From Deltaproteobacteria bacterium (lineage in GTDB: Bacteria > Desulfobacterota > Syntrophorhabdia > Syntrophorhabdales > Syntrophorhabdaceae): a DNA stretch of 50,848 bases. A program made the position numbers and the translations under genes. This document shows, piece by piece, positions 18,343 through 39,862 of this stretch. The stretch is taken from positions 1-50,848 of the forward strand of contig JAKORG010000066.1 of NCBI GenBank assembly GCA_029777945.1, in the 5' to 3' direction. How positions within the stretch are numbered: position 1 is the first letter of the stretch; each line of letters begins with the position of its first letter. Under the pieces are notes generated by a model. That model ran no database searches. It saw only the letters and a program-made list of their open reading frames with translations, and had not been told where the DNA came from.

Positions 18343-20490
18343 ATGGATTCAATATATCTATCATTTCTCTGGCATATGCATCAGCCTTTTTACAAAAATC
18401 TCTGGACCGGGGAATATCTTTTACCATGGGTTTTGCTCCACGGCACAAAGGATTATTTTGACATGCCATATATGATTAAAGACTATGAAAAAATAAGGCA
18501 GAATTTCAACCTCGTGCCGTCGCTTCTTTTGCAATTAAAGGATTATGAGGAAAATGAGGTGGATGATATTTACCTGAATATTTTGAAAAAACCAGCAGAA
18601 GAGCTAACCAGTGATGATAAATCCTTTATTTTAATGAATTTTTTCAATGCAAACTGGGAGAACATGATAAAACCCTTTCCGAGATTTTATGAGCTTTTAA
18701 GAAAAAGGGGTTTTTATTATTCAAAGGAACATTTAAAAGATATTCAGCGCTATTTTAGCGTTCAGGACTTTAGAGATATTCAAATACTATTTTTTCTCTC
18801 GTGGATTGACCCTGTGTTTTTTGGTATGTATGAGGAATTGCAGAGATTAAAGGCAAAGGGTAGATTTTTTTCAGAAGAAGACAAAGAGACGCTAATAAAA
18901 ATCCAACATGAAATCTTAAAAGGTATTATACCAATTTATAAAGAAATGGCAGAAAAAGGTAAAATAGAGCTCTCCACATCGCCTTTTTATCACCCGATCA
19001 TCCCTTTGCTCATTGATAACAGGATTGCAAGGGATGCTTTACCTGATTTAAACTTACCGGAAAAACCCTTTTCTTTTCCAGAAGATGCCAATACCCAGAT
19101 TGAAAAGGCCCTGGCATACTTTAAGGATATTTTCCAGTTCTTACCAGAGGGTATGTGGCCTCCTGAAGGCTCTGTAAGCAACGAAGCCTTAAAGCTCTAT
19201 ATGAAAAATAACATAAATTGGATTGTCACAGATGAGGATATACTATTTAAAAGCCTAAACATTGAAGAAAGAAAAGGTAGGGATAGTTCTTTTATTGCTT
19301 ATGAATATTTATGCAAACCGTATATATTCGAATCAGATGGTAAAAAGATAAATATGCTCTTTAGAGAAAAAATGCTATCAGACTTAATCTCCTTTCACTA
19401 TTCAAGGATGCACCCAAAGGATGCAGCAGAAGATTTGATAAAGAGAATACTTTTAATCATGGACCAGGTAAAGAATAAACTCAGAAGGCCTATGGTAAAT
19501 ATAACTATGGATGGAGAAAATGCCTGGGAAAATTATACAAACGACGGATGGGATTTTTTCAAATATCTATACGATATGATTGAGAAAGAAGAAAGAATTA
19601 GACCTATAACAATTTCAGACTATTTAAAAGAGGCAGATAATTTTGGTCGCATCTATGATTGCTTTGCCGGCTCCTGGATTAATCACAATTTTTATATCTG
19701 GATAGGTCATATAGAAGATAACACTGCCTGGTCACTTATTACTGAAACGAGAGAGGTGCTTGAAAGGGAAGACCCGGAGAAAAAGAATAAAAATGCATGG
19801 GAATCTATTTACATTGCTGAAGGTAGTGACTGGAACTGGTGGTACGGCGATGATCATGCATCAGAAAACGATGAGGTATTCGACCTACTCTTTAGAGAAA
19901 ACCTTTCAAATGTTTACAGGTTCTTAAAAAAGGAACCGCCGGCAAAACTTTCTATCCCTGTGATGATAGAAGAAAGAGAGGTAAAACCTGAAAGAGAACC
20001 TGTTAATTTTATTAAGCCAATAATAGATGGGAAGAAAACAAACTATTTTGAATGGATGGGCTCGGGTTATATAGAAAATAAGTCCCACGGTGTGGCAATC
20101 CACGAATCTATAAATTTGATAAAGAGCCTTTACTTTGGTTTTGACAAAAGATTTTTTTATTTAAGGGCAGACCTCGATAAGGTATATCTTAACAGTGAAA
20201 AGGATATTACCTTTGAAATCCAGATTACAGCCTCAGATAGGACGTTTAATATTAGCTATTCCATAAAAGATAATCTTGTTAATGCAGACATACCCATAAT
20301 AATTACCTATGTAGACATACTTGAGGCAAGACTTGAGGTGGCCTCTTTAGGTGTAAATGCGAGAGATAAAATTTTTTTATGGCTTACGTTAAAGATAAAA
20401 GAAATGAGAGTGGATAGAATACCATCAAGGGGATACCTGTCAATTACCGTTCCATCAGAAGACTTTGAGATGGAAATGTGGTATGTTTAG
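18343..20490 (+). CDS. glycoside hydrolase family 57 protein (alpha-glucan-active)
   Basis: A 715-residue GH57 enzyme with no signal peptide, so likely cytoplasmic. HMHQP (residues 11-15) is the family motif 1. The nucleophile is E275 in MWPPEGSVSN, the acid/base D390 in MDGENAWENY. GSWINHNFYIWIG and SDWNWWYGDDH are also typical. The C-terminal ~170 residues form a beta-rich extension as in GH57 amylase/pullulanase-like proteins. Family members cut or rearrange alpha-1,4/1,6-glucans; which activity is not resolvable. A role in glycogen turnover, possibly supplying sugars to the trehalose genes downstream, is inference. No clear Shine-Dalgarno precedes the ATG. Confidence 0.88.
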   Translation: MDSIYLSFLWHMHQPFYKNLWTGEYLLPWVLLHGTKDYFDMPYMIKDYEKIRQNFNLVPSLLLQLKDYEENEVDDIYLNILKKPAEELTSDDKSFILMNFFNANWENMIKPFPRFYELLRKRGFYYSKEHLKDIQRYFSVQDFRDIQILFFLSWIDPVFFGMYEELQRLKAKGRFFSEEDKETLIKIQHEILKGIIPIYKEMAEKGKIELSTSPFYHPIIPLLIDNRIARDALPDLNLPEKPFSFPEDANTQIEKALAYFKDIFQFLPEGMWPPEGSVSNEALKLYMKNNINWIVTDEDILFKSLNIEERKGRDSSFIAYEYLCKPYIFESDGKKINMLFREKMLSDLISFHYSRMHPKDAAEDLIKRILLIMDQVKNKLRRPMVNITMDGENAWENYTNDGWDFFKYLYDMIEKEERIRPITISDYLKEADNFGRIYDCFAGSWINHNFYIWIGHIEDNTAWSLITETREVLEREDPEKKNKNAWESIYIAEGSDWNWWYGDDHASENDEVFDLLFRENLSNVYRFLKKEPPAKLSIPVMIEEREVKPEREPVNFIKPIIDGKKTNYFEWMGSGYIENKSHGVAIHESINLIKSLYFGFDKRFFYLRADLDKVYLNSEKDITFEIQITASDRTFNISYSIKDNLVNADIPIIITYVDILEARLEVASLGVNARDKIFLWLTLKIKEMRVDRIPSRGYLSITVPSEDFEMEMWYV

Positions 20491-22962: not shown

Positions 22963-23358
22963 ATGAACAAAGAAAAGGGTTTTTCCTTAATTGAGCTCAT
23001 CATAGTAATTGTGGTCCTTGGAATTCTTGCAGTGGCAATCGTGTATAGGTTTGGCTCTATAGGAATAGATACATCAGCTATTGTAGCAGTAGATCAGACT
23101 ATTGCCGATATACAGTATACCCAGATCCTTGCCATGTCACAGGCAGCTCAGAAAAGCATATCCTTTACATCAGGCTTTGATTCATATAATGTGGCAGGTG
23201 AAATAAAAAAGCTACCAGGCGGCGTAACCGCAGGAAATACCATAACATTCACATTTAATTCTCTTGGAGAACCTGCTTCTGGAGGAGGTCAAACAGTAAC
23301 AATAGGTGAGAGACAGATAAAGGTTTGGGCAATAACAGGGAATACTGAAGCACTATGA
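22963..23358 (+). CDS. prepilin-like protein, GspH/FimT type
   Basis: A 131-residue type IV pilin-like protein. A six-residue leader MNKEKG is followed by the prepilin peptidase site G/FSLIEL with Glu at +5. The hydrophobic helix IIVIVVLGILAVAIVYRF and a small beta domain follow, with the QYTQILAMSQAAQKS segment reminiscent of FimT/GspH minor pilins. It ends with IKVWAITGNTEAL. First of four consecutive minor-pilin genes; the last bases overlap the next start by four. Confidence 0.88.
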   Translation: MNKEKGFSLIELIIVIVVLGILAVAIVYRFGSIGIDTSAIVAVDQTIADIQYTQILAMSQAAQKSISFTSGFDSYNVAGEIKKLPGGVTAGNTITFTFNSLGEPASGGGQTVTIGERQIKVWAITGNTEAL

Positions 23359-23807
23359 AAGGCTCAAATAAAAAGATTCTTACTCATAAATGCAAAAAAG
23401 GCTTTACCATCATTGAGCTTATTATTTTTATCGTAATTGCTGGACTTTTTGTCCCCTTGGCATATGTAGCCTTTACTGCTGCGTTGAAGAATGTAGCCAC
23501 CCCCGAATCCATAACAACGGCGAGATTTATTGCAGAACAGAAACTTGAAGAAATTACAAAGGATAACTTTGAGACAATTATTACAAACTATCCACCGCCC
23601 ACAAGCACATCGTATACAGATGTCCCCGGGTATAGTGGCTATCAATGGAAGTGGACTATAGGTTATATAACATATAGCGGCAATCCGCCTGTGATATCCG
23701 ATTCTGTATCTGCAACGAATTATCTAAAAATTATAGTCTATGTGAGAGAACCCCAGGGATATGAATATGATGTCAACACCATTGTTACAAAAAGATTAGG
23801 TAGTTAG
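23355..23807 (+). CDS. prepilin-like protein, GspI/PilV type
   Basis: A 150-residue minor pilin. A longer basic leader (MKGSNKKILTHKCKKG) precedes FTIIELIIFIVIAGLFVPL, with Glu at +5. The block FIAEQKLEEI in the first third of the mature part is typical of PilV/GspI-like pilins (ATTARFxAEQKLEE-like). The soluble part is Tyr/Pro-rich (NYPPPTSTSYTDVPGYSG). Two bases separate it from the next gene's ATG. Confidence 0.87.
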   Translation: MKGSNKKILTHKCKKGFTIIELIIFIVIAGLFVPLAYVAFTAALKNVATPESITTARFIAEQKLEEITKDNFETIITNYPPPTSTSYTDVPGYSGYQWKWTIGYITYSGNPPVISDSVSATNYLKIIVYVREPQGYEYDVNTIVTKRLGS

Positions 23808-23808
23808 T

Positions 23809-24363
23809 ATGAAAGAAAGAGGTTTTACATTGATCGAGATTATTATCACCATTGTCATTCTCAGTGTAATAGGTGTGTTTTCTTTTTCATTTTTTTCACA
23901 CTTAACAATGACATATACAATGACGGAATCCAAAAGAACCATCCATCAGGAGGCAGTCTATGCCTTAGAGAGGATATCAAGGGAACTAAGGGATGCAAAA
24001 GAAGTGAAAGTCAACAATAACGTAATACAATTTGAAAGGGCACATGCCACAGGGCAGGACAGTAATAAATATATAAAATTTTATAAGAGTGCTACAGACC
24101 TATACAGGGATTCGGTAGGTGATAGTGGCTTTACAACAAATACAACCCATAATATAATTGCAAAAAATGTATCTTCCTTTACTGTGTCACCCAGTGGCAC
24201 ACCCCTTCCCCCTGATACAGAAGTAACCATCTCTTTAAGTATTACCAGAGGTGAGACACAGTCATACTCTGTAAAGGTCTGTGTAAAAAATTACTCAGAC
24301 ACCGGGACATGCACCTTTAATGGGAGGAGTTTTGGAGGGTGTTATGAAGATAAGATTTACTGA
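23809..24363 (+). CDS. prepilin-like protein, GspJ/PilW type
   Basis: A 184-residue minor pilin with a very short leader, MKERG/FTLIEIIITIVIL, and Glu at +5. The early mature region EAVYALERISRELRDAKEV matches GspJ/PilW-type pilins, in which an ALERIxRELRxA helix follows the membrane segment. The C-terminus holds three Cys (KVCVKNYSDTGTC, GGCYEDKIY) that may form disulfides. Its end overlaps the following gene by 20 bases. Confidence 0.87.
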   Translation: MKERGFTLIEIIITIVILSVIGVFSFSFFSHLTMTYTMTESKRTIHQEAVYALERISRELRDAKEVKVNNNVIQFERAHATGQDSNKYIKFYKSATDLYRDSVGDSGFTTNTTHNIIAKNVSSFTVSPSGTPLPPDTEVTISLSITRGETQSYSVKVCVKNYSDTGTCTFNGRSFGGCYEDKIY

Positions 24364-25192
24364 GAAAGGACTCTCCCTCGTTGTATTGATTGTTATTATT
24401 ACAGTTCTCGGTTTTTTAGGCACAGGTATAGTCTCATTTATAGGTGCTAAACAAAAATCGTATCCTCTCCATGTTCAATCCTATCAGGCCCTTGCCCTTG
24501 CCAATGCAGGCATTGAGTTTGCAATAAGATTTGCAAATGACAAATATCAAATCGGACAAACTGTTCAAGACTGTCTTGGTTCACCTATTACCGTTAGTTT
24601 TGGCAATGGAAGTTTTACAATACAGTATATAGGTGGCACTGACTACACATTAAAGTCAGTTGGCACCTGTGGCAATGCCAAAAGAGAGGTATGGCTTAAT
24701 AGATTTCCAGGTTATACTCAAGGCACAGGTTTTATGTTAACAAAGACCATAGATCCAAATTATAGTCCGTCCTCACATAGCTCCTCTGTAAATATCCCTC
24801 TAACAAATCTCTACGAACAAACAATATATATAAAATACATTACCATTACCTTAAACCCAACACAGGGTAGTGCAAATTTTTTAGAGACCATATCTTTTGG
24901 GGGATCCACAGTTTACAATTTTAATAATGATTCAAGTAATCCAAATAAAACTGGTAAGGGCATATGTATACCCACATCAGGAGGCACTGGATGTGATGCT
25001 GGTTCATTAACGCCTGCAAAGATACCCTATGCATTTAATCTCAACCTTGCTATACCACCCGGGACAGCTACTGAGATTTTAAATTTTAATTCTGCTTCGA
25101 TTAGGGGGACATATACAGTTAATTTTTTCTACGATTTTAATACAGGCTATACAGATTTAAAGACAGCAACCTTTACATTCATAATCAATTAA
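24344..25192 (+). CDS. GspK/PilX-like minor pilin
   Basis: I choose the ATG at 24344 because GGAGGG lies just upstream; a longer frame begins at 24320. The 282-residue product starts MKIRFTEKG/LSLVVLIVIITVLGFLG. The cleavage Gly is present, but +5 is Val instead of Glu, as in GspK-type tip pilins. The helix then continues with SYQALALANAGIEFAIRFA, the PilX/GspK signature. The C-terminal domain (TLKSVGTCGNAKREVW and beyond) is beta-rich with two CIPTSGGTGC cysteines. Likely the pilus-tip subunit, completing an H-I-J-K-like set. Confidence 0.8.
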   Translation: MKIRFTEKGLSLVVLIVIITVLGFLGTGIVSFIGAKQKSYPLHVQSYQALALANAGIEFAIRFANDKYQIGQTVQDCLGSPITVSFGNGSFTIQYIGGTDYTLKSVGTCGNAKREVWLNRFPGYTQGTGFMLTKTIDPNYSPSSHSSSVNIPLTNLYEQTIYIKYITITLNPTQGSANFLETISFGGSTVYNFNNDSSNPNKTGKGICIPTSGGTGCDAGSLTPAKIPYAFNLNLAIPPGTATEILNFNSASIRGTYTVNFFYDFNTGYTDLKTATFTFIIN

Positions 25193-26264: not shown

Positions 26265-28496
26265 ATGAAGATAACCTTACGTCTTGTAGTTTCCCTGATA
26301 ATTGTTGTTGCCATGATTGCAATAGGATTTTCTTTATATCAGGTAAAGATAGAAAGAGAGAGGCTTGTTAGAGAACTTGAAAGAAGGACCGCCCTTCTTT
26401 CTGAAAGCCTCGAAGAATCCGTTATCCCCCTTGTTCAATCTAAAAGCTTTGTTAAAATAAAACGTTTTGTTGAGAGATTTGGAAACAGAGAAAGATTAAT
26501 AGGAATCATAGTAAACGACTTTCAGGGTGAAACAATTGCCTCAACAAAGGCCATATCAGGGTATGCACATATAATATTACCACAGGTTTTAAATTCTATT
26601 TCCGAGAAAAAGACAATACATAGTTTCAAAAAAATAGATCATAAAGAGGTATTCATATTCACAAAGTTTTTTGAAGATGAGGAGGGTAATGTTACAGGTG
26701 CTCTAAGTCTGTTTCAGGATTCCTCTTTTATCGATATTAGGCTCAGAGAAATATGGAAATACAATTTTTTGAGATTGGTTATCCTATCCATTGTAATAGT
26801 GGGTATCACACTGCTTGTTGTCAAGTGGAGTATAACAGGTCCTATTGCCCAGATAGCCGAGTGGGTTAGGGATATGAGGCTTGGGAATGAAAAAGAAAAG
26901 AAAAAAACAATGGCCTTAAATAATGATGTTTTTGCACCTCTTGTAAAAGAGGTTACGCAACTTGCAAAAACCCTTTCTAAAGTAAAGAAAAGTATGGAAG
27001 AAGAAAAAATAAGATTAGATACAGAATCTTTATGGAATGCGGAGAAATTAAAGGCCTATACATCAGATAAGCTGGGCGACAAAAAACTTTTTGTCATCTC
27101 CAATAGAGAACCTTATCAGCACTTAAAAGAAGAGGGCAAAATAAAGTGTGTGGTCCCTCCAGGTGGGCTTGTTACTGCCCTTGACCCTGTAATGAGGGTA
27201 TGCGATGGCGTATGGATTGCCCATGGTAGTGGAGATGCTGACAGGTTAGTGGTGGATGAGAAAAATAAAATTAGAGTGCCTCCTGATAATCCTTCATATA
27301 CTTTAAAGAGGATATGGTTAACAAAAGAAGAAGAAGACGGTTATTACTATGGGTTTGCAAATGAAGGTATGTGGCCTTTGTGCCATATAACCCATGAAAG
27401 GCCAATTTTTCGCCTTAATGATTGGATTTATTATCAGAAGGTCAACGAAAAGTTCGGTCTTGCCATCCTCGAAGAGATAGAAGACATTGAATCGCCACTT
27501 ATTCTTGTTCAGGATTATCATTTTGCCCTTTTGCCTTATCTAATCAAAGAAAAAAGACCTGATGCTAAAGTTGCTATTTTCTGGCATATACCTTGGCCCA
27601 ACCCTGAGACATACGGGATCTGTCCATGGGTAAGAGAGTTGCTTATTGGTATGCTCGGGGCTGATTTAATAGGTTTTCACATCCAACTTTACTGTAATAA
27701 TTTTCTCGATACTGTTGACCGTTTTCTTGAATCAAAGATAGACTGGGAACAATTCACTATAAGCAAAAAGGGACATATAAGCTTTGTAAAGCCATTCCCA
27801 ATTAGTATAAGCCCTGCTTTTTCCACCAATAATATTAATACCCAAAGAAAAGATGCATTAAAAGAAAGCCTTTTAAAAGAGTTTGATATAAATGGTATAT
27901 ACATGGGGGTAGGTGTTGACAGGATTGATTATACTAAAGGTATCTTAGAACGATTTCGGGCTATTGAGAGATTTTTTGAAAAATATCCGCAGTTTATAGA
28001 AAAATTTATATTTGTAGAGTTTGGTGCACCGAGTAGGACCCATATAAAACGTTATAGAGAGCTTCTTGCCCAAACTGAAGAGACAGCGGATAATATAAAC
28101 TGGAAGTTTCAGACAAAAAATTGGAAGCCTATTATCTTTCTTAAGGGAAATCATTCCCATGAAAAGATAATGCCCTTTTATATGGCAGCAGATATGTGCA
28201 TGGTTACATCTCTTCATGACGGGATGAATCTTGTCGCAAAGGAATATGTGGCATCCTGTCTTGAAGATTCTGATGTACTAATCTTAAGTCAGTTCACAGG
28301 TGCATCAAGAGAATTAAAGGACGCACTTATTGTAAATCCCTATGATATAGAATCCATGGCCGATGCCATATATTTTGCTTTGACCATGGATGAAGAAGAA
28401 AAGAAAATCCGTATGAAAAAAATGAAAGAAAATATTATGGATAACAATATCTACAAATGGGCAGCTAACCTGATTACTGAACTTACCCGTTTTTAA
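26265..28496 (+). CDS. otsA: membrane sensor-HAMP-trehalose-6-phosphate synthase fusion
   Basis: A 743-residue fusion. TM1 (about 4-26), a periplasmic domain (about 27-165), TM2 (168-187) and a HAMP-like linker with a coiled coil (187-260) precede a full GT20 domain (273-743). Catalytic residues of OtsA are retained: R281 in ISNREP, PPGGLVTAL (298-305), D417 in VQDYHF, H441 in WHIPW, R553/K558 in VDRIDYTKG, and D652/E660 in HDGMNLVAKE. It should make trehalose 6-phosphate from a nucleotide-glucose and glucose 6-phosphate at the membrane. Stand-alone OtsA is about 450-500 residues, so the receptor half is an addition. The gene is followed by otsB after nine bases. Signal-controlled enzyme activity is inference. 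Confidence 0.9.
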   Translation: MKITLRLVVSLIIVVAMIAIGFSLYQVKIERERLVRELERRTALLSESLEESVIPLVQSKSFVKIKRFVERFGNRERLIGIIVNDFQGETIASTKAISGYAHIILPQVLNSISEKKTIHSFKKIDHKEVFIFTKFFEDEEGNVTGALSLFQDSSFIDIRLREIWKYNFLRLVILSIVIVGITLLVVKWSITGPIAQIAEWVRDMRLGNEKEKKKTMALNNDVFAPLVKEVTQLAKTLSKVKKSMEEEKIRLDTESLWNAEKLKAYTSDKLGDKKLFVISNREPYQHLKEEGKIKCVVPPGGLVTALDPVMRVCDGVWIAHGSGDADRLVVDEKNKIRVPPDNPSYTLKRIWLTKEEEDGYYYGFANEGMWPLCHITHERPIFRLNDWIYYQKVNEKFGLAILEEIEDIESPLILVQDYHFALLPYLIKEKRPDAKVAIFWHIPWPNPETYGICPWVRELLIGMLGADLIGFHIQLYCNNFLDTVDRFLESKIDWEQFTISKKGHISFVKPFPISISPAFSTNNINTQRKDALKESLLKEFDINGIYMGVGVDRIDYTKGILERFRAIERFFEKYPQFIEKFIFVEFGAPSRTHIKRYRELLAQTEETADNINWKFQTKNWKPIIFLKGNHSHEKIMPFYMAADMCMVTSLHDGMNLVAKEYVASCLEDSDVLILSQFTGASRELKDALIVNPYDIESMADAIYFALTMDEEEKKIRMKKMKENIMDNNIYKWAANLITELTRF

Positions 28497-28505
28497 TTAT
28501 CTTTA

Positions 28506-29303
28506 ATGTATATGAACCCTCAGTATTTTTTTAAAGAAGATTTAGGCTGGATAAAAGAAAAAAAGCTCTTTTTATTTTTCGACTTTGACGGCACCCTTGT
28601 GCCTATTCAAGACAACCCGTCATCATGCATGCTCGAAGGAAAGATAAAATCATATATTAAAAGAATTGTAAGCAATAGTTTAGCCGATGTGGCGATTATA
28701 AGTGGAAGGTCTGTAGAAGATATAAAAAAAAGGGTAAATATAAAAGGAATATATTACAGCGGAAACCATGGGCTTGAAATTAGAGGGCCTGGTTTGAATT
28801 TTATACACCCTGAAATAATGCCTGCGATTAAATTAATAAAAAATGCAAAAAAGGTCATTTCAAAGTATGTTGAGCAAATCCCAGGGGTGTTTGTGGAAGA
28901 TAAACATCTTTCATTTACATTGCATTTCAGGTTGGCAGATAAAGAAGGCAAAAGACTGGCAAAATCGATATTTAAACAAATCTTATCAAAGGAATTTCAT
29001 AATATGCCCTTTAAGGTATTAAAAGGCAAAGAGGTTCTTGAATTGACACCCCTTATAGATTGGGATAAAGGTAAAGCAGTTCTTTTTATCATTAAAGAGA
29101 TTGGACAAGAGTATATACCCCTTTATATTGGAGATGATTTAACCGATGAGACTGCCTTTTCTGCTATAAAGGGACAAGGTATAACAATCAGGATTGGGAG
29201 ATCAAAAAATACAGATGCTCGTTATTACCTTAGGACTCAGCATGAAATATATAATTTTTTTAAAAAGATTTGTGATATAATTGAAAAATGCCACAAAAAG
29301 TAA
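28506..29303 (+). CDS. otsB: trehalose-6-phosphate phosphatase
   Basis: A 265-residue HAD-superfamily phosphatase that releases trehalose. Motif I is FFDFDGTLVPI, with nucleophile and acid/base Asp. Motif II is AIISGRS, the cap region includes YYSGNHGLEIRGPG and a substrate Lys in LKGKEVLELTP, and motif III is YIGDDLTDETAF. It follows the synthase fusion and overlaps the MscS-like gene, so synthase, phosphatase and channel-like protein share one transcript. No Shine-Dalgarno is visible; translation may depend on the upstream gene. Confidence 0.93.
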   Translation: MYMNPQYFFKEDLGWIKEKKLFLFFDFDGTLVPIQDNPSSCMLEGKIKSYIKRIVSNSLADVAIISGRSVEDIKKRVNIKGIYYSGNHGLEIRGPGLNFIHPEIMPAIKLIKNAKKVISKYVEQIPGVFVEDKHLSFTLHFRLADKEGKRLAKSIFKQILSKEFHNMPFKVLKGKEVLELTPLIDWDKGKAVLFIIKEIGQEYIPLYIGDDLTDETAFSAIKGQGITIRIGRSKNTDARYYLRTQHEIYNFFKKICDIIEKCHKK

Positions 29304-30694
29304 TGGAATGGCTTTTAAATAATTGGCTTGGTCTTTCAGTACCTATAATAGTGTTCATTGCCTCTATAGTCGTATCCATATGGTTAAGAAAAAGACTTTT
29401 TAATTATCTGGAGAGGGTTTTATCCCAGATACGTTGGGAGGAGAAAAAAACCTTTCTTGATAAAACAAAAACGCCCTTTCTCCAGTGGTGCATTATACTT
29501 GGTGCCTACATATCCATTCAATTGTCACCACTGCCTTTAAGTCTGAAGATTTTCTTTGGTAAGATTTTAAGTAGTTTTTTTATACTATCATTAACATGGA
29601 TTATCATAATACTTCTGGAAAAGATACTTCATATATATCTAAAAAAAATGGATCTTTTTCCATCAAATACAACCACAATAATTATAAATGGTTTAAAGGT
29701 TGCTTTTCTTGTAGTGGCTATTCTTATAATGTTAGACCTCTGGGGTATGCCCATCACTCCATTTATATTTATACTTTTTATTATCATCTTTTTCGCTGTA
29801 TTTACTGCACGGGATGAGATAATAAATATTTTTTCTGGTTTTGAGTTAGCAAGAAATAGCCTTATTAAAACAGGCAACTATTTAAAACTTGAATCTGGTG
29901 AAGAGGGTTATATAATTGAAATTACAAAGACGAATATGCACATAAAAACATTAGACGGTAAAATCCTGCTTATACCTAATAGCAGGATGCTTCGTTCCGT
30001 TGTGACAATAATAAGTAAACCCTTAAAACAGGCAACACAACCGTTCAGATTCTATACGAGGCTTCATTTAAAGGAGTTAACTGGTCTTAAAGCTACCAAC
30101 ATATACGAACTTGTGGATATATTGAAAAAGGTAGATGATGCTGTTATCTACTATCATACCCATAATTTTATTGAAGAGTTTCAGTATTTGACACCTCAAC
30201 CTGCAAACGACTTTGCCCTATGGGTAAGCGATGCCTTAGGAGATCAAGTTCTGGGAGAGAAGCTATCCAATATAGATACATTTGAATTCTCCACAATCGG
30301 TGCCCTCCGTGAAAGGATAATCGATGTGATTCAGGATGAGGTTGCAAAGAGAAAGGATATAAACAATGCCCCTTACGGCAGGGAATTTCATTTTATAAGA
30401 TCCATAAGTGCAATAGTCCCCACATCTTATGTTACCCACGATTTGAGAGAATTTATAGAGATGTTAAAGCTGGTAAGTCTTGATACACTGTATTTTCATA
30501 TTTTTGAATCCCGTTTGAGGCTTCACAAGGGTGTTAATGATTTTTCCATTTGGATTAATGATTGCCTTGGTGAAAAGGCCCTTGCTGACGAGATTGCAGT
30601 CCTTGACCCATATACCTATACCCTTGAAGGCTTGCGCTCGATGATAATAAGTATTATTGAAAAACATTTAGAAAGGGAATATGCTGTTGGATAA
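29288..30694 (+). CDS. MscS-like membrane protein with duplicated C-terminal domain
   Basis: A 468-residue protein. TM helices lie near 16-33, 65-80, 92-112, 134-152 and 157-175. The beta domain follows (EEGYIIEITKTNMHIKTLDG, ILLIPNSRML), the MscS core signature with the IPNS turn. The pore helix is atypical: FIFILFIIIFFAVFTARDE lacks the Gly/Ala packing of MscS. Residues 255-356 and 368-463 are two copies of one domain; compare NDFALWVSDALGDQVL with NDFSIWINDCLGEKAL, and IYYHTHNFIEEF with LYFHIFESRLRL. This duplicated unit may correspond to DUF5752 (from memory, unchecked). ATGs at 29288 and 29303 (TAATG with the otsB stop) are both possible. Confidence 0.8.
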   Translation: MPQKVMEWLLNNWLGLSVPIIVFIASIVVSIWLRKRLFNYLERVLSQIRWEEKKTFLDKTKTPFLQWCIILGAYISIQLSPLPLSLKIFFGKILSSFFILSLTWIIIILLEKILHIYLKKMDLFPSNTTTIIINGLKVAFLVVAILIMLDLWGMPITPFIFILFIIIFFAVFTARDEIINIFSGFELARNSLIKTGNYLKLESGEEGYIIEITKTNMHIKTLDGKILLIPNSRMLRSVVTIISKPLKQATQPFRFYTRLHLKELTGLKATNIYELVDILKKVDDAVIYYHTHNFIEEFQYLTPQPANDFALWVSDALGDQVLGEKLSNIDTFEFSTIGALRERIIDVIQDEVAKRKDINNAPYGREFHFIRSISAIVPTSYVTHDLREFIEMLKLVSLDTLYFHIFESRLRLHKGVNDFSIWINDCLGEKALADEIAVLDPYTYTLEGLRSMIISIIEKHLEREYAVG

Positions 30695-31934
30695 AGAGGC
30701 AACCATCCGTTCAAAGGCAAGACTTCACGATTACATCCCTCTTGTTGGCAGGGGAACTATAGAATCACTATATAACCTTGCCGAGAGATTATCAGGAAAA
30801 ACAATTGTGAATATAAACTCCACATTTTCAGGTGGAGGTGTAGCAGAGATTCTCATGAGGATGGTGCCGCTTTTAAACCAGCTTGGAGTTGATACAAGAT
30901 GGATGGTTATAAAAGGCAATGAATCTTTTTTCACAGTAACAAAAAAATTCCATAATGCCCTGCACGGAAAGAAAGAGGAGATTACCCCTCAAGACTATGC
31001 CCTTTTTCTTGATGTGAGTAATAAAAATATCGAGGAGATGCAGATAACCGGTGATATACTTTTTATCCATGACCCACAGCCCGTTACCCTCATTAAAAAG
31101 AAAGGTGAAGTCGGAGAAAAATGGGTGTGGAGATGTCACATTGATGTATCAAACCCTGACCTTGAGGTTTGGAATTTTTTGTATCAATATGTGGTGGATT
31201 ATGATGCTACTGTATTTTCAGCCCCGAATTTTGCAAGAAAGCTTCCAAACAGACAGTTTCTCATACATCCATCTATAGACCCATTAAGCGACAAAAATAG
31301 AGAGCTACCTAAAGAGACAATAGAAAGTGTTTTAAATAAGTACAATCTCGATATGGAAAAGCCCATTATCCTTCAGGTGTCTCGGTTTGATTATCTCAAA
31401 GATCCCATCGGTGTCATAGATGCCTTTGAGATGGTAAGAAAGAATATCCCATGTCAGCTTGTTCTTGCCGGAGGTACTGCCACAGATGACCCCGAATCAG
31501 ATAAGGTCCTTGAAGAAGTAAAGGAAAGGGCTTCAGGTAATTCTGATATCCATGTGTTACTTATTCCACCTGAAAGCGACATAGAGATAAATGCCCTTCA
31601 AAGGGTAGCAACTATAGTAATGCAGAAATCCATTAAAGAGGGTTTCGGTCTAACAGTTACAGAGGCTCTATGGAAGGCAAAGCCTGTTGTTGCCTCGGCA
31701 GTTGGTGGAATTCAATTGCAGGTCAAAAACAAATTTACCGGGCTTCTTTGTCATAGTATAGATGGTGCAGCCTATGCATTGAGACTTCTTCTTAGTAATC
31801 CCGAATATGCCCAGTGGCTTGGGAAAAACGGGCAAGAACATGTAAGGCAGAACTTTCTTATTACCCGTCACCTAAAAGATTATCTCCTCTTATTCCATTC
31901 CCTTTACCACCATCAGGATGTGGTCTACCTTTGA
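30681..31934 (+). CDS. treT: TreT-like trehalose synthase (GT4 glycosyltransferase)
   Basis: A 417-residue GT-B enzyme. The N-terminus (HDYIPLVGRGTIESLYNLAE and NINSTFSGGGVAEIL) is characteristic of trehalose glycosyltransferring synthase TreT, which joins NDP-glucose and glucose directly. WRCHIDVSNPD, LQVSRFDYLKDPIGVI, and the GT4 donor motif KSIKEGFGLTVTEALWK (E-x7-E) follow. It overlaps the MscS-like gene by 14 bases and ends the operon. The cluster thus encodes two independent routes to trehalose, OtsA/OtsB and TreT; TreT can be reversible in characterised archaea, so a degradative role is also open. Confidence 0.85.
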   Translation: MLLDKEATIRSKARLHDYIPLVGRGTIESLYNLAERLSGKTIVNINSTFSGGGVAEILMRMVPLLNQLGVDTRWMVIKGNESFFTVTKKFHNALHGKKEEITPQDYALFLDVSNKNIEEMQITGDILFIHDPQPVTLIKKKGEVGEKWVWRCHIDVSNPDLEVWNFLYQYVVDYDATVFSAPNFARKLPNRQFLIHPSIDPLSDKNRELPKETIESVLNKYNLDMEKPIILQVSRFDYLKDPIGVIDAFEMVRKNIPCQLVLAGGTATDDPESDKVLEEVKERASGNSDIHVLLIPPESDIEINALQRVATIVMQKSIKEGFGLTVTEALWKAKPVVASAVGGIQLQVKNKFTGLLCHSIDGAAYALRLLLSNPEYAQWLGKNGQEHVRQNFLITRHLKDYLLLFHSLYHHQDVVYL

Positions 31935-32490: not shown

Positions 32491-32808
32491 ATGCAAATTG
32501 ATGATATAGCATTTATCCAAAACGATGAAGACTTAATAACCCTTCCACCGCTCACAGATAAGCAGGAAGAATGCCTTGTTTATCTATTTAGCTATTTTAC
32601 CGAACATAGGTACTATCCCACCCAGAGAGAAATTGCACAGCAAATGCATTTGAAATCTAATAGTGCTGCCATTTTTATAGAGCCTTTAATAAAAAAGGGT
32701 TACATTGAAAAAGAACCTGGTAAAAATAGAAATATCCATATTACAAAGGCAGGATTTTTGAAATTAAAGCTTATAGAAAAGAAAAGGAAAGAAAAGGATA
32801 AGTTGTAA
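32491..32808 (+). CDS. stand-alone LexA-type winged-helix DNA-binding protein
   Basis: A 105-residue protein. Residues 21-90 match the LexA N-terminal DNA-binding domain: LTDKQEECLVYLFSYF, YYPTQREIAQQMHLKSNSAA (recognition helix region) and IKKGYIEKEPGKNRNIHI (wing). The autoprotease domain is absent. The C-terminus is a Lys-rich tail. The gene ends four bases before the PilM-N gene, so it may regulate the pilus operon or itself; the AT-rich 260 bases upstream would be the target region. Function in the SOS response is unlikely without the protease half. Confidence 0.75.
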   Translation: MQIDDIAFIQNDEDLITLPPLTDKQEECLVYLFSYFTEHRYYPTQREIAQQMHLKSNSAAIFIEPLIKKGYIEKEPGKNRNIHITKAGFLKLKLIEKKRKEKDKL

Positions 32809-32812
32809 TATC

Positions 32813-34408
32813 ATGGATATTATAGGCATAGATATTGGCAGTGTAAGGATAAAATATGTCCGCATGCAGAGAAAATCTAAAAGGATCATTATTGTCTCAA
32901 AAGATTCTTTTGATTATAAGGGCACCTTTGATGACTTAAGTGAGATCATCGGTTCCATAGCTGTAAAAGAAGGGACAAACAATGAGATTGTAGTGGGCAT
33001 TACATCTCAGGAAATATTTAAAAAATCATTTACAGTGCCTATAATGCCAAAGGAAGAAATAAAAGAGGCTGTTAAGTGGTCTGCTTCAAAGGTCATATCT
33101 ACCCCTGTTGAAGATACGTATTACGAATTTGATATTATCGGTGATATTGAAGAAAGGGGCATCAAAAAAAGGGATATATTTTTTGCAGGAATAGAGAAAG
33201 ATTATGCAAATAAAGTGGTTTCCCTTTTTATGGAAAAAGGATTTGAAAAGATCACACTTTTGACTGATTCTTCATTTGTTTATGCCCCTTATATAAAGGA
33301 TATAAACCCTGAATTATCTGTAGTGGTGGATATAGGTGGTAGGGTTACTGGTATATACATAATAGAAAACGGTAAGAACATGTTTTTCAGGGAGATATTA
33401 ACTGCCTCAGAGAGCTTTACCGATGCCCTAATGAGCGGATTTAATTTTAGCTATGATGAGGCTGAGCATTATAAAAGAGAAAAAGGCTTTGTAGAAGATT
33501 CTGAACCTATACTTTCTGTAACGCTGGAAAGACTTGCAGGAGAGATTCAAAGGACATTTAGCGTATTTTTACAGAAATATGTGGATAAGAAGATAAGGCA
33601 CATTTATTTTACAGGTGGCGGTTCAAAAATACCCAATCTTATAGAAAAATTAAAAAATTTTTTTGAAGAAGAAGCAATTAGTCTTCCCCTTTTAGAAGAG
33701 ATTGAAGATACTTTTCTTCCTGCATATCTTCTATGTTTAAAAAAGACACAACTTTTTAATCTTTTGCCCTATGAGATAAGATCAAAAAAGAAGGAAGAGA
33801 ATCAAAAAAAATGGTTAAGAATAGGAACCGTAGGACTTTTATCAGTTATCGTTATAATAACTATAAATATGTTCGGTAAAATAAAAAAACTCGAATCAAA
33901 TATAAACATGGAGAAAATGCTGGTGTCTAATAATAAACAGAAATTTGCTCAACTTTCAGGGTCTGTTTTTTTATCCAAAGACGATGAATTTGTGCAATTA
34001 TTTTCAGAAATAAAAAAGAAAGATTTAACTTATCTATCCCTTCTTAAATATCTTTCATCGAAACTGCCAAAGAATGTGTCTTTAAAAGAAGTTTATTTAG
34101 AATTACATGAAAAAACAACTGTTTCTCAAAAAACAGGACAGACAAAAATACCTGAGAAGCCCCAGGATTCATTGGTAAAACAGGACACAAAGGCAACAGA
34201 GGATGAAACGTATATTATAAGGATAAAGGGCTATATATTTGGGGAGAAGAACCTACTGGAATCTGAACTCCTTGAGTTTATCATAAGACTTGAAGGGTCT
34301 GGTTTTATTTATATGGTAGATGTTGTAGGTAAAGATTTAAAGACACTAAAGGGAAAAGGCGTTATGGAGTTTGAACTAAAAGGCAGGTGCGCCGTACATG
34401 AAATTTAA
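32813..34408 (+). CDS. PilM-PilN fusion (MshI/GspL-like) pilus inner-membrane platform protein
   Basis: A 531-residue protein joining two usually separate subunits. Residues 1-310 are the cytoplasmic actin-like PilM fold (GIDIGSVRIKYV, SVVVDIGGRVTGIYII, IYFTGGGSKIPNL). Residues 314-323, FNLLPYEIRS, match the PilN N-terminal peptide that binds PilM. TM at about 336-354 and a periplasmic coiled-coil/ferredoxin-like part (370-531) follow. GspL of type II secretion and MshI of MSHA pili have a comparable layout. A low-complexity insert rich in Lys/Thr/Gln lies around 430-465. PilO-like and PilP-like genes follow with overlaps. Confidence 0.85.
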   Translation: MDIIGIDIGSVRIKYVRMQRKSKRIIIVSKDSFDYKGTFDDLSEIIGSIAVKEGTNNEIVVGITSQEIFKKSFTVPIMPKEEIKEAVKWSASKVISTPVEDTYYEFDIIGDIEERGIKKRDIFFAGIEKDYANKVVSLFMEKGFEKITLLTDSSFVYAPYIKDINPELSVVVDIGGRVTGIYIIENGKNMFFREILTASESFTDALMSGFNFSYDEAEHYKREKGFVEDSEPILSVTLERLAGEIQRTFSVFLQKYVDKKIRHIYFTGGGSKIPNLIEKLKNFFEEEAISLPLLEEIEDTFLPAYLLCLKKTQLFNLLPYEIRSKKKEENQKKWLRIGTVGLLSVIVIITINMFGKIKKLESNINMEKMLVSNNKQKFAQLSGSVFLSKDDEFVQLFSEIKKKDLTYLSLLKYLSSKLPKNVSLKEVYLELHEKTTVSQKTGQTKIPEKPQDSLVKQDTKATEDETYIIRIKGYIFGEKNLLESELLEFIIRLEGSGFIYMVDVVGKDLKTLKGKGVMEFELKGRCAVHEI

Positions 34409-34958
34409 ACGTATCTATATCTGGTACAGTATACCTGTATTTTTAATTCTAATATGGATTTTATTTGTTTTTATGCCATTATCAACGATGATAAAAAGTA
34501 AAGAAAAAGAGTTGGCATCTTTAAAAAATGAACAGGCTTCGCTCGATGCAAAAATAAACGCTTTATTACAGCAAAAAAATCAAAGGGATAAAACAACAGG
34601 TTTGCTGAAAGAATATATATCAGACATACCAGTGATAGAGCATTTACCAGATTATATTAAAGGTATTATTAAAGGCTCTAATAAATACGGCGTGGCTATA
34701 ATAAATTTTAACAGCACACTTTCTTCAATCGATAATGTATCAAAATCTATGCTTTTGATGCCTGCCTTTGATGTAACCATAAAGGGTAGATTTATGGATA
34801 TATCGAATTTTTTGGAAAGGATAACAGATTATAGAGCATACAGGGCTATTAAAAAGGCTGAACTTTTTTATAATGAAAAGGAATATCCAATCCTTACGGG
34901 TAAATTCGTGATTGAATTTAAATCATTAAGGAGGCTACCAGGGCTTGAAGTTAAGTAA
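34398..34958 (+). CDS. PilO/MshJ-like inner-membrane assembly protein
   Basis: A 186-residue bitopic protein: one N-terminal TM (IPVFLILIWILFVFMPL), a coiled coil (KSKEKELASLKNEQASLDAK) and a periplasmic ferredoxin-like domain with MPAFDVTIKGRFMDISNFLE, the usual PilO core. It pairs with the PilN part of the preceding fusion to form the alignment complex. It starts 11 bases inside the fusion gene and overlaps the following TTG start by 14. Confidence 0.82.
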   Translation: MKFKRIYIWYSIPVFLILIWILFVFMPLSTMIKSKEKELASLKNEQASLDAKINALLQQKNQRDKTTGLLKEYISDIPVIEHLPDYIKGIIKGSNKYGVAIINFNSTLSSIDNVSKSMLLMPAFDVTIKGRFMDISNFLERITDYRAYRAIKKAELFYNEKEYPILTGKFVIEFKSLRRLPGLEVK

Positions 34959-35442
34959 ACCTGTTTTGTTTACTCTTATAGGTGCGATTATTGTAATTAT
35001 CTATCTATTCTTTTTCGCTGGACCTAAAAAAATACCTCCTGTTAAGATTAAGTCACCTGAAACAGAAGGTACTAAGGTTCAAACTGGACTAATGGAAAAA
35101 GACAGGCCAAAGGATGGACCTAAAAAAGTAGCTAATGTGGATGCATTCTGGAAAAATGACCCTTTTATGTTACCTCAAATATCTCAAATAACTACTATTG
35201 ATGAAGAAATGGCCCATGAACCCTTAAAGTTGCATGGGATAATAGAGGGCAAAGACGGCAGATATGCTATCATAGGCACGAATATTGTTAAAAAAGATGA
35301 TTTTATAGGAGACGAAAGGGTGTTAGATATAGGGAAGGATACGGTAATAATTGCCCGCAAAGGTAAGAAAAAAACAGTATTTATGTCAGATTTATCAAAG
35401 GAAATGGATTTTAAAACATCTTCTCCGGGGGAAAAAAGATGA
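34945..35442 (+). CDS. PilP/MshK-like periplasmic protein
   Basis: A 165-residue protein read from a TTG start preceded by AAGGAGG. Residues 6-24 are a membrane anchor (PVLFTLIGAIIVIIYLFFF), a Lys/Pro-rich linker follows, and the C-terminal half is a PilP/GspC-like small beta domain: LKLHGIIEGKDGRYAIIG, DDFIGDERVLDIGKDTVI. Such proteins connect the PilNO complex to the secretin; here the anchor is a TM helix rather than the lipoprotein signal common in PilP. Its last four bases overlap the secretin start. Confidence 0.78.
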   Translation: MKLSKPVLFTLIGAIIVIIYLFFFAGPKKIPPVKIKSPETEGTKVQTGLMEKDRPKDGPKKVANVDAFWKNDPFMLPQISQITTIDEEMAHEPLKLHGIIEGKDGRYAIIGTNIVKKDDFIGDERVLDIGKDTVIIARKGKKKTVFMSDLSKEMDFKTSSPGEKR

Positions 35443-36959
35443 AAAAAATTTTCATAATAATCGTATTTTTAATTATCTGTAGTTCCTGTGCAACTACAGA
35501 TAAGGTTGTAGATACTGCTGTTAAAAAGACACCATCCCCAACTGATATATTATTTCCTCTGGTGCCTCAATTAAAAAAGACAAAAACGACTGATTCAGAA
35601 AAAGAAAAGGAACTTTTTACCTTCTCTTTAAGGGAAGCTGATATAAAAGATGTTTTAAGGGCGATTGCAAAACAGACCGGTTATAATATGGTAATCGAGC
35701 CAAATGTAAAAGGTTTATGCACAGTAGATTTAAAAGACATTTCACTAGAGAAGGCACTGGAGTATATCCTTGAACCACTAAATCTGACTTTTAAAATTGA
35801 AAATAATACTGTGTATGTATCGAAACCCAAGATTGAGACGAGATTTTTCCCCCTAAATTATGTGACCCTTACAAAATTAGGAAAAAGCACTGTATCTGGC
35901 TCATCAACGGGTCAGGCATCTGCAGCAGCTGGAGGTGCTCAGCAGGCAGGGGCAACATCAGCGATTGTTAATCTTCAGACAATTTCAGAGGCTGATTTGT
36001 GGAAAACCCTTGAGGATAATATAAAAGTGCTTTTGTCACCAGATGGAAAGTATACCATAAACAGACATGCATCGATTGTTATGGTAATGGATTATATGAG
36101 AAACATCAAAGATGTGGCTACCTTTCTTGAGGCAATAGAAGGCACTGTTCAGAGGCAGGTAATGATTGAGGCAAAGATTGTAGAGGTAACACTAACAGAA
36201 GAGACAAGCGAGGGTATAAACTGGTCTGCATTAAATATGAAATGGTTTGGAAGTAATTATAGTATTAATGTTGAACAGGCACTCGTATCTCCTCAGACAA
36301 GATATTTTAATATACCAAAAATATACGATACCTTTGACCCTGCAAAGTTTCAAGCCCCTCCAACAAATTATTTCCGTTTTGGGGTATCAAAGGGCAAATT
36401 CGATGCATTTATAGATTTATTAAAGACTACATACAAGGTAAATTTTATATCAAGCCCCAAAATTTCGACCCTTAATAATCAAAGGGCAGTGATAAAGGTA
36501 GCACAGGACGATGTATATTTTGATTATTCGTCTACATCTACCGCATCTGCCACCACATCAGGGTTTACAACAAAATTTGTAACCGTTGGGCTTATACTCG
36601 ATGTGACACCGCAGATTGACAGTAATGGCAATATACTTATGAATATACATCCTGTTCTAACAGATAAGGTTGCACAGGTTGAGATGCCTGTGCCAGCAGG
36701 CACTACAGGAGGGTCAGCATATGTTCCTATTCTTGCTGTAAGAGAAGTGGACATCATTGTAAAGGTTAGGGAGGGAGAAACAATTATCATTGCAGGCTTA
36801 ATACAGAATAAGTCTATTATAAAGGATACAGGGGTGAAGGATATTTCTGATATACCTTTAATTGGAAAGCTTTTTAAAAAACAGGACAGGGATATAAAAA
36901 AGACAGAACTGGTAATCTTTTTGACACCTAAAATAGTATACGGCAAGGAGTCCATATGA
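35439..36959 (+). CDS. outer-membrane secretin (PilQ/MshL type)
   Basis: A 506-residue secretin, likely a lipoprotein (MKKIFIIIVFLIICSSC). The STN/N0-like domain covers about 63-130 (FSLREADIKDVLRAIAKQTG; VDLKDISLEKALEYIL). A Gly/Ala/Ser-rich linker (SSTGQASAAAGGAQQAGA) precedes the N1-like part. The C-terminal gate contains VNFISSPKISTLNNQRAV, VREGETIIIAGLIQNKS and ISDIPLIGKLFKKQ, ending ELVIFLTPKIV. The single short N-region fits MshL more than multi-N-domain GspD. Pilin fibres would leave through it. It sits between the PilP-like and MshN-like genes and overlaps the latter by four bases. Confidence 0.92.
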   Translation: MKKIFIIIVFLIICSSCATTDKVVDTAVKKTPSPTDILFPLVPQLKKTKTTDSEKEKELFTFSLREADIKDVLRAIAKQTGYNMVIEPNVKGLCTVDLKDISLEKALEYILEPLNLTFKIENNTVYVSKPKIETRFFPLNYVTLTKLGKSTVSGSSTGQASAAAGGAQQAGATSAIVNLQTISEADLWKTLEDNIKVLLSPDGKYTINRHASIVMVMDYMRNIKDVATFLEAIEGTVQRQVMIEAKIVEVTLTEETSEGINWSALNMKWFGSNYSINVEQALVSPQTRYFNIPKIYDTFDPAKFQAPPTNYFRFGVSKGKFDAFIDLLKTTYKVNFISSPKISTLNNQRAVIKVAQDDVYFDYSSTSTASATTSGFTTKFVTVGLILDVTPQIDSNGNILMNIHPVLTDKVAQVEMPVPAGTTGGSAYVPILAVREVDIIVKVREGETIIIAGLIQNKSIIKDTGVKDISDIPLIGKLFKKQDRDIKKTELVIFLTPKIVYGKESI

Positions 36960-37996
36960 GCCTCATTTTAGACGCATTAAGAAAGGCACAGCAGGAAAGA
37001 AAGGCAATCTATGTCAAAGAACAAGGTAAAAATTTTATAAATTTCGGAAAACCGAGAAAAGCCTTTTATTTTTTACTCGGTATTGGTCTATGCCTTTGTC
37101 TAATAATATTTTTACTACCTGTTCCAAAAAAAACAGGCACTGATTATACAAAAATGGTAACTGCAAAAATAGAAAAGCCCTTGATTGACCTTAAAGATAT
37201 CCCAAAGGAGGTTCAAAAAAAGCCTAAAAAAGGTGATTTGATTAATACTTCAATAGCAGGAAATAAAGAAAGTATAAAATCAGCAGGTGAAATTAAGAAA
37301 AGTGTTGTTTCAAAAAAAGATAAAGAGATGGATGAAGCGCATAAAGTCGATAACACCCTGGAATCTAAAAATAGTGAAAATGTAGATGTTATGGTTAAAA
37401 AGAGTAATGAGAATAGGATCATAAATTTGTTTAATAAGGCAGTGGCAGAGACAAATAAAGGTAATTTGGATACAGCAAGGGATATATATTTAAAAATACT
37501 CGAAGAAAAACCTGATTATATAGAAGTATTAAATAATCTCGGCGTTATTGCCATGAGCCAGGGTAATACAAAAGAGGCCATTTCCTACTACAGAAAGATA
37601 CTGGAGAAATTGCCTAATTATTCAAAGGCATACAATAACATGGCAATTGCCTTATTAAAAGGAGGTGATAAAAAGCTCGCTGAAGAATATCTTAAAAAGG
37701 CCATTGAGATTAATAGAGAAGGCATCGAAGCATATATCAATCTTTTAGGCCTATTACGTTCAGAAAAAAGATTAAAAGAGGCGGTAAATATACTCGAACC
37801 AATCATTAAAAAAGGCTATGAAAATCCAAATCTATATCTGAGTTATGCCATTATAATGGATGAAATGGGTAATATAAATGAAGCCACTCTTTATTATAGA
37901 TATTACCTACGTTTATCCAGCAAGTCAGAAGAGAGAAATAAGGTTCTTGAAAGGTTGAAAATACTTGAAGATAGAGATGTTACAAAAAATCCTTAA
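36956..37996 (+). CDS. MshN-like TPR protein with GspB-type N-terminus
   Basis: A 346-residue bitopic protein. The N-terminus MSLILDALRKAQQERK is the conserved cytoplasmic motif of GspB/MshN proteins. A TM helix lies at 35-52 (FYFLLGIGLCLCLIIFLL). A Lys/Ser/Val-rich periplasmic linker follows, and then tetratricopeptide repeats from about 155 to the end (DYIEVLNNLGVIAMSQGNTK; PNYSKAYNNMAIALLKGGDK). It should pair with the ExeA/MshM-type ATPase at 21.2-22.2 kb to place the secretin. A gap of 117 bases with a possible terminator separates it from the ATPase gene. Confidence 0.85.
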   Translation: MSLILDALRKAQQERKAIYVKEQGKNFINFGKPRKAFYFLLGIGLCLCLIIFLLPVPKKTGTDYTKMVTAKIEKPLIDLKDIPKEVQKKPKKGDLINTSIAGNKESIKSAGEIKKSVVSKKDKEMDEAHKVDNTLESKNSENVDVMVKKSNENRIINLFNKAVAETNKGNLDTARDIYLKILEEKPDYIEVLNNLGVIAMSQGNTKEAISYYRKILEKLPNYSKAYNNMAIALLKGGDKKLAEEYLKKAIEINREGIEAYINLLGLLRSEKRLKEAVNILEPIIKKGYENPNLYLSYAIIMDEMGNINEATLYYRYYLRLSSKSEERNKVLERLKILEDRDVTKNP

Positions 37997-38031
37997 CAAA
38001 GCAATATTGAAAGGCACAATAAGAAAGACTT

Positions 38032-38065
38032 AAAAAGGCTTATTTCACTTAAGGGGGCTTTTTTT
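38032..38065 (+). terminator. possible terminator or attenuator between mshN-like and mshE-like genes
   Basis: AAAAAG(38032-38037)/CTTTTT(38058-38063) and CTTA(38039-38042)/TAAG(38050-38053) can form an interrupted stem with a G versus GGGG internal loop, followed by a run of seven T. It is weaker than a typical terminator and may allow partial read-through. Confidence 0.4.
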
Positions 38066-38113
38066 ACAACTAAAAAATTGAGTAATTAAAAAAATAAAGC
38101 CAGGAGTGATTAA

Positions 38114-39802: not shown

Positions 39803-39862
39803 TATGTTTTAACTGACCCTTATTATAATTGGGATTTTATTTTAAAAAATTAAAAGATAGTT

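Follow-up and report, generated by a model that had tools for sequence, protein, structure and literature searches.

Cache and HAMP receptors are known to control kinases, chemotaxis proteins, cyclases, c-di-GMP enzymes, phosphatases and transcription factors, and every output tabulated in that survey (PMC4822843, Table 1) is a signalling or regulatory protein. For trehalose-6-phosphate synthases, control by other means has been reported: mycobacterial OtsA was described as being under allosteric control by 2-oxoglutarate and 2-phosphoglycerate (PMC6879718), and the abstract on Arthrobacter OtsA presents that enzyme as an osmotic stress sensor which self-assembles, promoted by trehalose-6-phosphate (PMC5685639). 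The closest described gene neighborhood is the msc-gt-tpsp operon of Thermoproteus tenax, in which the glycosyltransferase activates the synthase, the two working as a complex, and for which the authors put forward a model of trehalose synthesis under stress with release by way of the channel, stating that a comparable bacterial operon was not known (PMC3634074).

Here we analysed a bacterial locus in which these themes meet, located in a 50,848-nucleotide stretch of DNA (the window). Its central gene is best explained as encoding a transmembrane receptor-enzyme, in which a kinase-type input half is joined to a complete trehalose-6-phosphate synthase and would tune synthesis to an extracytoplasmic cue, a reading to which we assign a probability of roughly three in four. 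The original prediction had placed a transmembrane sensor and a HAMP linker fused to a synthase at positions 26265-27080, and this interval does correspond to residues 1-272 of an intact 743-aa ORF (Table 1). Hydropathy analysis of the N-terminal part (first 300 residues) found two TM helices and no more, at about 3-25 and 166-190 and separated by approximately 135-140 residues, in agreement with the two helices and about 140 periplasmic residues expected.

Table 1 Features of the receptor-type synthase and of the genes downstream, in window coordinates.
Feature	Position	Strand	Evidence
Receptor-type trehalose-6-phosphate synthase, 743 aa	26265..28496	+	intact ORF; GT20 E 7.7e-117; recurrence in at least ~100 genomes
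TM1, residues ~3-25	26271..26339	+	hydropathy; AF2 helix 2-58
Periplasmic single-Cache (PDC) sensor, residues ~29-163	26349..26753	+	AF2 pLDDT 92-98; VIA; relatives' Pfam matches; dN/dS
TM2, residues ~164-188 (hydropathy ~166-190)	26754..26828	+	hydropathy; no indel G145-S189 in 100/100 sequences
HAMP helix AS1, residues 190-207 (P193, G207)	26832..26885	+	hhalign with own-genome HAMP profile; kinase alignment
HAMP helix AS2, residues 221-237, hydrophobic at 223/226/230/233/237	26925..26975	+	heptad conservation in 74 sequences; hhalign
Coiled-coil extension, residues 238-256, to fusion junction	26976..27032	+	heptad at 240 and 244; kinase post-HAMP helix homology; start of unfused relatives
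Trehalose-6-phosphate synthase unit: N-terminal helix 257-273 and GT20 274-741	27033..28493	+	Pfam; PDB matches; active-site residues; unfused relatives
Trehalose-6-phosphate phosphatase (TPP)	28506..29303	+	PF02358 E 1.7e-46; TIGR00685 above cut-off
MscS-type channel fused to DUF5752	29288..30694	+	Pfam; AF2 pLDDT 90.3; VIA
TreT-type trehalose synthase/phosphorylase (GT4)	30681..31934	+	PF21269; PDB 6zj4 E 2.5e-126

Searching the window protein alone against Pfam and NCBIfam returned no HAMP or Cache call, while a sub-cut-off NCBIfam match related residues 3-252 to a WalK kinase (E 1.2e-7). Because Pfam was silent on the single protein, relatives were needed, and both domain calls rest on them together with profile-profile comparison, structure and kinase homology. 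The AlphaFold2 (AF2) model of the receptor part (mean pLDDT 89.8) has Cache topology, with helices at 2-58, 62-73 and 95-114 and strands at 78-85, 90-93, 118-124, 127-137 and 143-152; TM1 runs unbroken into the first periplasmic helix, up to residue 58. The PAS-like sheet, the long N-terminal helix and the location between two TM helices place the domain in the Cache (PDC) superfamily. It superimposes on the crystal structure of the WalK sensor (4ywz; VIA Z 15.6, rmsd 2.3, 134 residues) and on CitA (8biy; VIA Z 13.6), and the top structural match is the WalK TM-Cache-TM-HAMP assembly (VIA Z 16.3 over 264 residues), an entry that is itself an integrative model; Foldseek recovered the same Cache fold and WalK-like TM-Cache-TM-HAMP layout (E 1.3e-9). 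Among the relatives, 26 of 74 match the Pfam family sCache_3_2 (best 1.3e-8), and the profile built from all 74 matches PDB Cache domains of WalK and DcuS at residues 32-160 and AF1503 HAMP domains at residues 188-237, both weakly (E ~0.001-0.3 for the two sets jointly). A structure prediction of this region had been proposed as a check for a PAS/Cache-like sensor and a HAMP bundle, and on this structural side the model returned a Cache sensor and a HAMP rather than a simple anchor lacking one.

Within the periplasmic core (residues 59-153), the positions conserved to at least 75% are F72, L78, G80, G88, A92, P/F135, G145 and D152. They are structural, and no conserved polar ligand pocket was found among the periplasmic-core residues, which leaves room for diverse ligands as well as for a physical signal. 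Overall the core is less conserved than GT20 (mean majority fraction 0.41 vs 0.70), which leaves a structural role for the sensor open. Comparison of close relatives (Nei-Gojobori) gave dN/dS values of ~0.10-0.13 for the periplasmic domain and ~0.05-0.06 for GT20, indicating purifying selection on the periplasmic domain.

The linker behind TM2 had been recognised beforehand as a HAMP-like helix pair, and this holds. Aligned by hhalign with a profile of eight HAMP domains from the window's own genome, it reached a probability of 93.5, a score of 34.1 and an E value of 2.3e-7, with P193 and G207 falling on the HAMP proline and glycine, compared with a maximum score of 13.4 in 40 column shuffles and 7.7 for the reversed linker. 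Twelve of the 74 relatives match PF00672 (HAMP; best 3.6e-5), and AF2 predicts one helix extending from TM2 through AS1 and a second at 221-253. P193 is present in 71 and G207 in 63 of the 74 relatives; the AS2 heptad positions (223, 226, 230, 233 and 237) are hydrophobic in 99-100% of the 74 sequences, as are positions 240 and 244, which continue the heptad into the coil, and the corresponding AS1 positions are hydrophobic in 77-100%. The Glu of the HAMP DExG motif is common without being universal or defining. At the start of AS2 it is replaced here (D221-V-F-A), position 222 being mostly L, F, I or V, whereas the kinase relatives have D-E, and owing to this loss we class the linker as a divergent HAMP.

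The segment that starts with the last Cache strand and includes TM2 (G145-S189) is free of indels in all of 100 sequences, and the one that follows, up to the end of AS1 (S189-W200-G207), in 88 of them. The other 12 form one subclade (L032, L038, L039, L042-L046, L050, L054, L056 and L058) missing seven residues between TM2 and AS1, the HAMP proline included, so that their HAMP may be degenerate. Length variation exists in the periplasmic domain and in the HAMP connector. A rule by which indels come in heptad units was considered and dropped: changes of +/-1 occur near residue 248 and the subclade lengths further on are alignment-dependent, and we therefore claim fixed lengths only. Together with the dN/dS values, this pattern is more in keeping with a functioning signal path along the helices than with a plain anchor.

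The origin of the N-terminal half, a layout that had been called typical of chemoreceptors and histidine kinases, can be traced to histidine kinases. Its profile finds ~500-residue proteins (148 genomes of the phylum) matched over residues 2-252 with E values of 1e-37 to 1e-28; all four of those scanned are HAMP+HisKA+HATPase_c kinases, and the gene next to one of them, scanned as well, encodes a sigma-54-type response regulator. The alignment of synthase and kinase is nearly gapless across TM1, Cache, TM2, HAMP and coiled coil, and one fused synthase compared with one kinase gave a BLASTP E value of 3e-18. The window protein thus shares with NtrB-type kinases (L162-L168, same phylum; structurally also WalK and CitA) a colinear TM1-Cache-TM2-HAMP-coiled coil of ~250 residues but differs in its output, which is a GT20 enzyme instead of HisKA/HATPase. 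Both kinase domains are present in the kinase relatives, but Pfam finds neither in the window protein, which cannot be counted among the histidine kinases. In the nearest relatives, unfused synthases begin at a position equivalent to about residue 256, with the fusion junction at ~253-257; since kinase homology ends where these unfused relatives begin, a plain trehalose-6-phosphate synthase gained the input half of a kinase. Structure, HAMP profile and kinase colinearity are three independent tests, and all of them mark residues 1-253 as the input module of a receptor. Two genomes (G085 contig 2 and G140 contig 148; L166, L168, L051) carry NtrB-type kinases with this input module 9-11 kb away from a trehalose synthase gene, with other genes intervening.

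The output half (PF00982) retains the active site of OtsA. Counting the first Met, OtsA R10, G23, Y77, W86, D131, H155, R263, K268, R301, D362 and E370 correspond to R281, G301, Y361, W370, D417, H441, R553, K558, R591, D652 and E660, so that 11 of 11 cleanly mapped substrate or catalytic positions are identical, as anticipated for a domain said to hold all catalytic residues; none of them is conserved in fewer than 100 of the 103 sequences aligned. The nearest PDB matches of the unit are Tps1-type trehalose-6-phosphate synthases. Since the score against the OtsA equivalog TIGR02400 (413.3) is under the curated cut-off (564.85), the product is assigned as trehalose-6-phosphate by inference and is not certified by the model. 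OtsA and Tps1 enzymes have the whole GT20 profile range and the active-site residues in common with the window protein, which differs in 256 extra N-terminal residues forming the receptor part; we know of no OtsA/Tps1 enzyme with a membrane receptor part. Arthrobacter OtsA is alike in being a trehalose synthase with a role in the osmotic response, but its abstract describes no membrane receptor module (PMC5685639).

The fusion is widespread. A GT20 match over the cut-off occurs in 120 of 297 genomes of the window's phylum, at least 27 of which carry the fusion (one cut by a contig end). In a scan of public genomes nearly all of the best 80 relatives listed have the full N-terminal module, which adds at least ~75 named genomes outside the phylum, including the isolate Niastella soli, and gives at least ~100 genomes from more than ten phyla overall. 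Labels among the matches listed comprise Nitrospirae, Acidobacteria, Methylomirabilis, Omnitrophota, Elusimicrobia, Gemmatimonadetes, Rokubacteria, Edwardsbacteria, several Patescibacteria, Bacteroidota (Niastella soli) and Proteobacteria; many of the carrier phyla are uncultured, and nearly all carriers are metagenome assemblies. In a GT20 tree, the 105 fused proteins sampled form one clade, on one side of one branch (SH-aLRT 95, from a quick search). In the open-access literature we found no study of a trehalose synthase linked to HAMP or Cache; an earlier notice in subscription papers or in domain databases is possible. What appears to be new is the trehalose-synthase output, the receptor input being already known. 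The anatomy given in the original prediction stood, but its picture missed both this widespread clade and the trehalose operon with MscS-DUF5752 and TreT.

Downstream of the synthase, the genes for TPP, MscS-DUF5752 and TreT overlap or are closely spaced. Within 5 kb of the fused synthase, TPP is found in 43, TreT in 29, DUF5752 in 27 and MscS in 11 of the 59 loci with enough flank. As in T. tenax, TPS/TPP functions stand with MscS-like and GT4 genes, but TPS and TPP, fused in T. tenax, are separate genes here, and the T. tenax synthase is without the receptor part that the window synthase has. The present operons are a bacterial counterpart of the T. tenax operon, with a receptor added. Two complete trehalose routes (TPS/TPP and TreT) occur in the one operon (28506-31934), possibly as redundancy or as an arrangement like that of T. 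tenax, where the glycosyltransferase activates the synthase.

In the MscS-DUF5752 protein, the C-terminal part of MscS is replaced by DUF5752, which is an internal tandem duplication of ~105 residues. In the AF2 model of the whole protein, the channel part resembles MscS/YnaI (VIA Z 12-13), and the DUF5752 half resembles T. tenax OrfY (VIA Z 21.4; 27% identity, E 9.3e-21), whose PDB entry 4cso is named 'OrfY protein, transcription factor'. Unlike in the OrfY entry, the homologue is fused to a channel here, an arrangement that suits a transcription factor poorly and argues for another role; a literature search for DUF5752 found nothing relevant. In five loci, mostly Omnitrophota (L123, L124, L142, L143 and L151), a stand-alone MscS gene, at a distance of -3 to 15 bases, abuts the fused synthase and DUF5752 is encoded separately close by, so that fused and split versions of the set both exist. 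A promoter and terminator scan found sites no more frequent than in shuffles. The surroundings, as read from the ORFs, place the trehalose operon between prepilin-like genes (22963-25189) and an apparent pilM-type pilus set (32813-41101); next to it is a LexA-like DNA-binding protein of 105 aa that lacks a protease domain (32491-32808), and a GH57 glycoside hydrolase (18343-20487, E 8.5e-59), likely an alpha-glucan enzyme, is encoded upstream.

Several other explanations have to be weighed. The best alternative, which we regard as unlikely, is that the N-terminal module only anchors and dimerises the synthase, keeping it beside the phosphatase, TreT and MscS without passing a signal. It draws on the T. 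tenax synthase, which acts in a complex with the operon-encoded glycosyltransferase beside an MscS-like protein (PMC3634074), on the weak conservation of the sensor residues and on the HAMP itself, its Glu lost and its length reduced in 12 sequences; the last two, together with the missing Pfam HAMP and Cache matches of the window protein alone and the near-restriction of the carriers to metagenome assemblies, also count against a receptor-enzyme. However, a pure anchor would need neither a folded Cache domain nor AS2 heptads kept 99-100% hydrophobic, and the constancy of helix length all the way from sensor to AS1 by way of TM2 and the purifying selection on the periplasmic domain (dN/dS ~0.1) speak against it as well. 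An assembly or gene-calling artefact that joined a kinase fragment to a synthase might be suspected in a draft assembly of 102 contigs, but this has a negligible probability: the same architecture recurs in at least ~100 independent genomes of many phyla, and chance or an assembly join is thereby excluded as its origin.

Two further alternatives concern the product and the cue. That GT20 makes another glucoside phosphate in vivo, such as glucosylglycerol phosphate, or serves as a ligand-binding output only, is improbable: the OtsA equivalog score under its cut-off (413 vs 565) would allow it, but the OtsA catalytic and substrate residues are conserved, the nearest structures are of Tps1 type, 43 of the 59 loci have a TPP gene next to the synthase or nearby, and the glucosylglycerol-phosphate synthase model, an identity we rejected, scores 291 against 413 for the OtsA-type model. 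A further reading, which we rate at somewhat below even odds, is that a small molecule or a fragment of the cell wall is the ligand of the Cache domain, in the manner of CitA, DcuS or WalK, and that the trehalose serves desiccation, storage or an envelope glycolipid. This is a variant of the receptor-enzyme reading and compatible with it; the Cache domains of WalK, CitA, DctB and KinD are its top structural matches, whereas the periplasmic core 59-153 shows no conserved polar pocket and the proximity of MscS genes to the enzyme speaks for osmotic stress.

For the receptor-enzyme itself, sequences and models show the identity of the module, its kinase relation, the intact catalytic residues, the single clade, purifying selection, fixed lengths of the helical path and the operon context. 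A cue at the Cache domain would probably shift TM2 and the HAMP bundle; by way of the coiled coil this shift would reach the GT20 unit, probably within a homodimer, and alter trehalose-6-phosphate synthesis, the adjoining phosphatase converting the product to trehalose. Dimerisation, the passage of the signal from TM2 and HAMP to the coiled coil and the change in GT20 activity are expected by analogy with HAMP receptors; membrane insertion and the direction of the effect are likewise presumed. The gene context suggests an osmotic or envelope-stress cue, ionic strength being one candidate among others, to which nothing specific points. Regulation of a sugar transferase by a receptor is plausible and backed by conservation. 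More tentatively, and in our view doubtful at present, the protein may belong to a membrane osmoregulation module in which one chain senses the cue and sets solute synthesis and a complex with TPP, TreT and MscS-DUF5752 couples the making and venting of trehalose; if so, both would be coupled at the membrane without gene regulation.

In combining input and catalytic output in one chain, the window protein resembles the Cache/HAMP one-component enzymes, i.e., nucleotide cyclases, GGDEF/EAL proteins and PP2C phosphatases, but while the Cache/HAMP outputs tabulated in PMC4822843 are signalling or regulatory, its own output makes a metabolite. If the receptor-enzyme reading is true, the receptor itself is a metabolic switch that responds without a transcription step, and a cell could in principle start the synthesis of its own osmoprotectant without a signalling cascade. 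HAMP signalling would become readable as product per minute instead of phosphotransfer, with Niastella soli as an isolate carrier usable for experiments, and this would offer a direct test of bacterial osmotic or envelope stress sensing.
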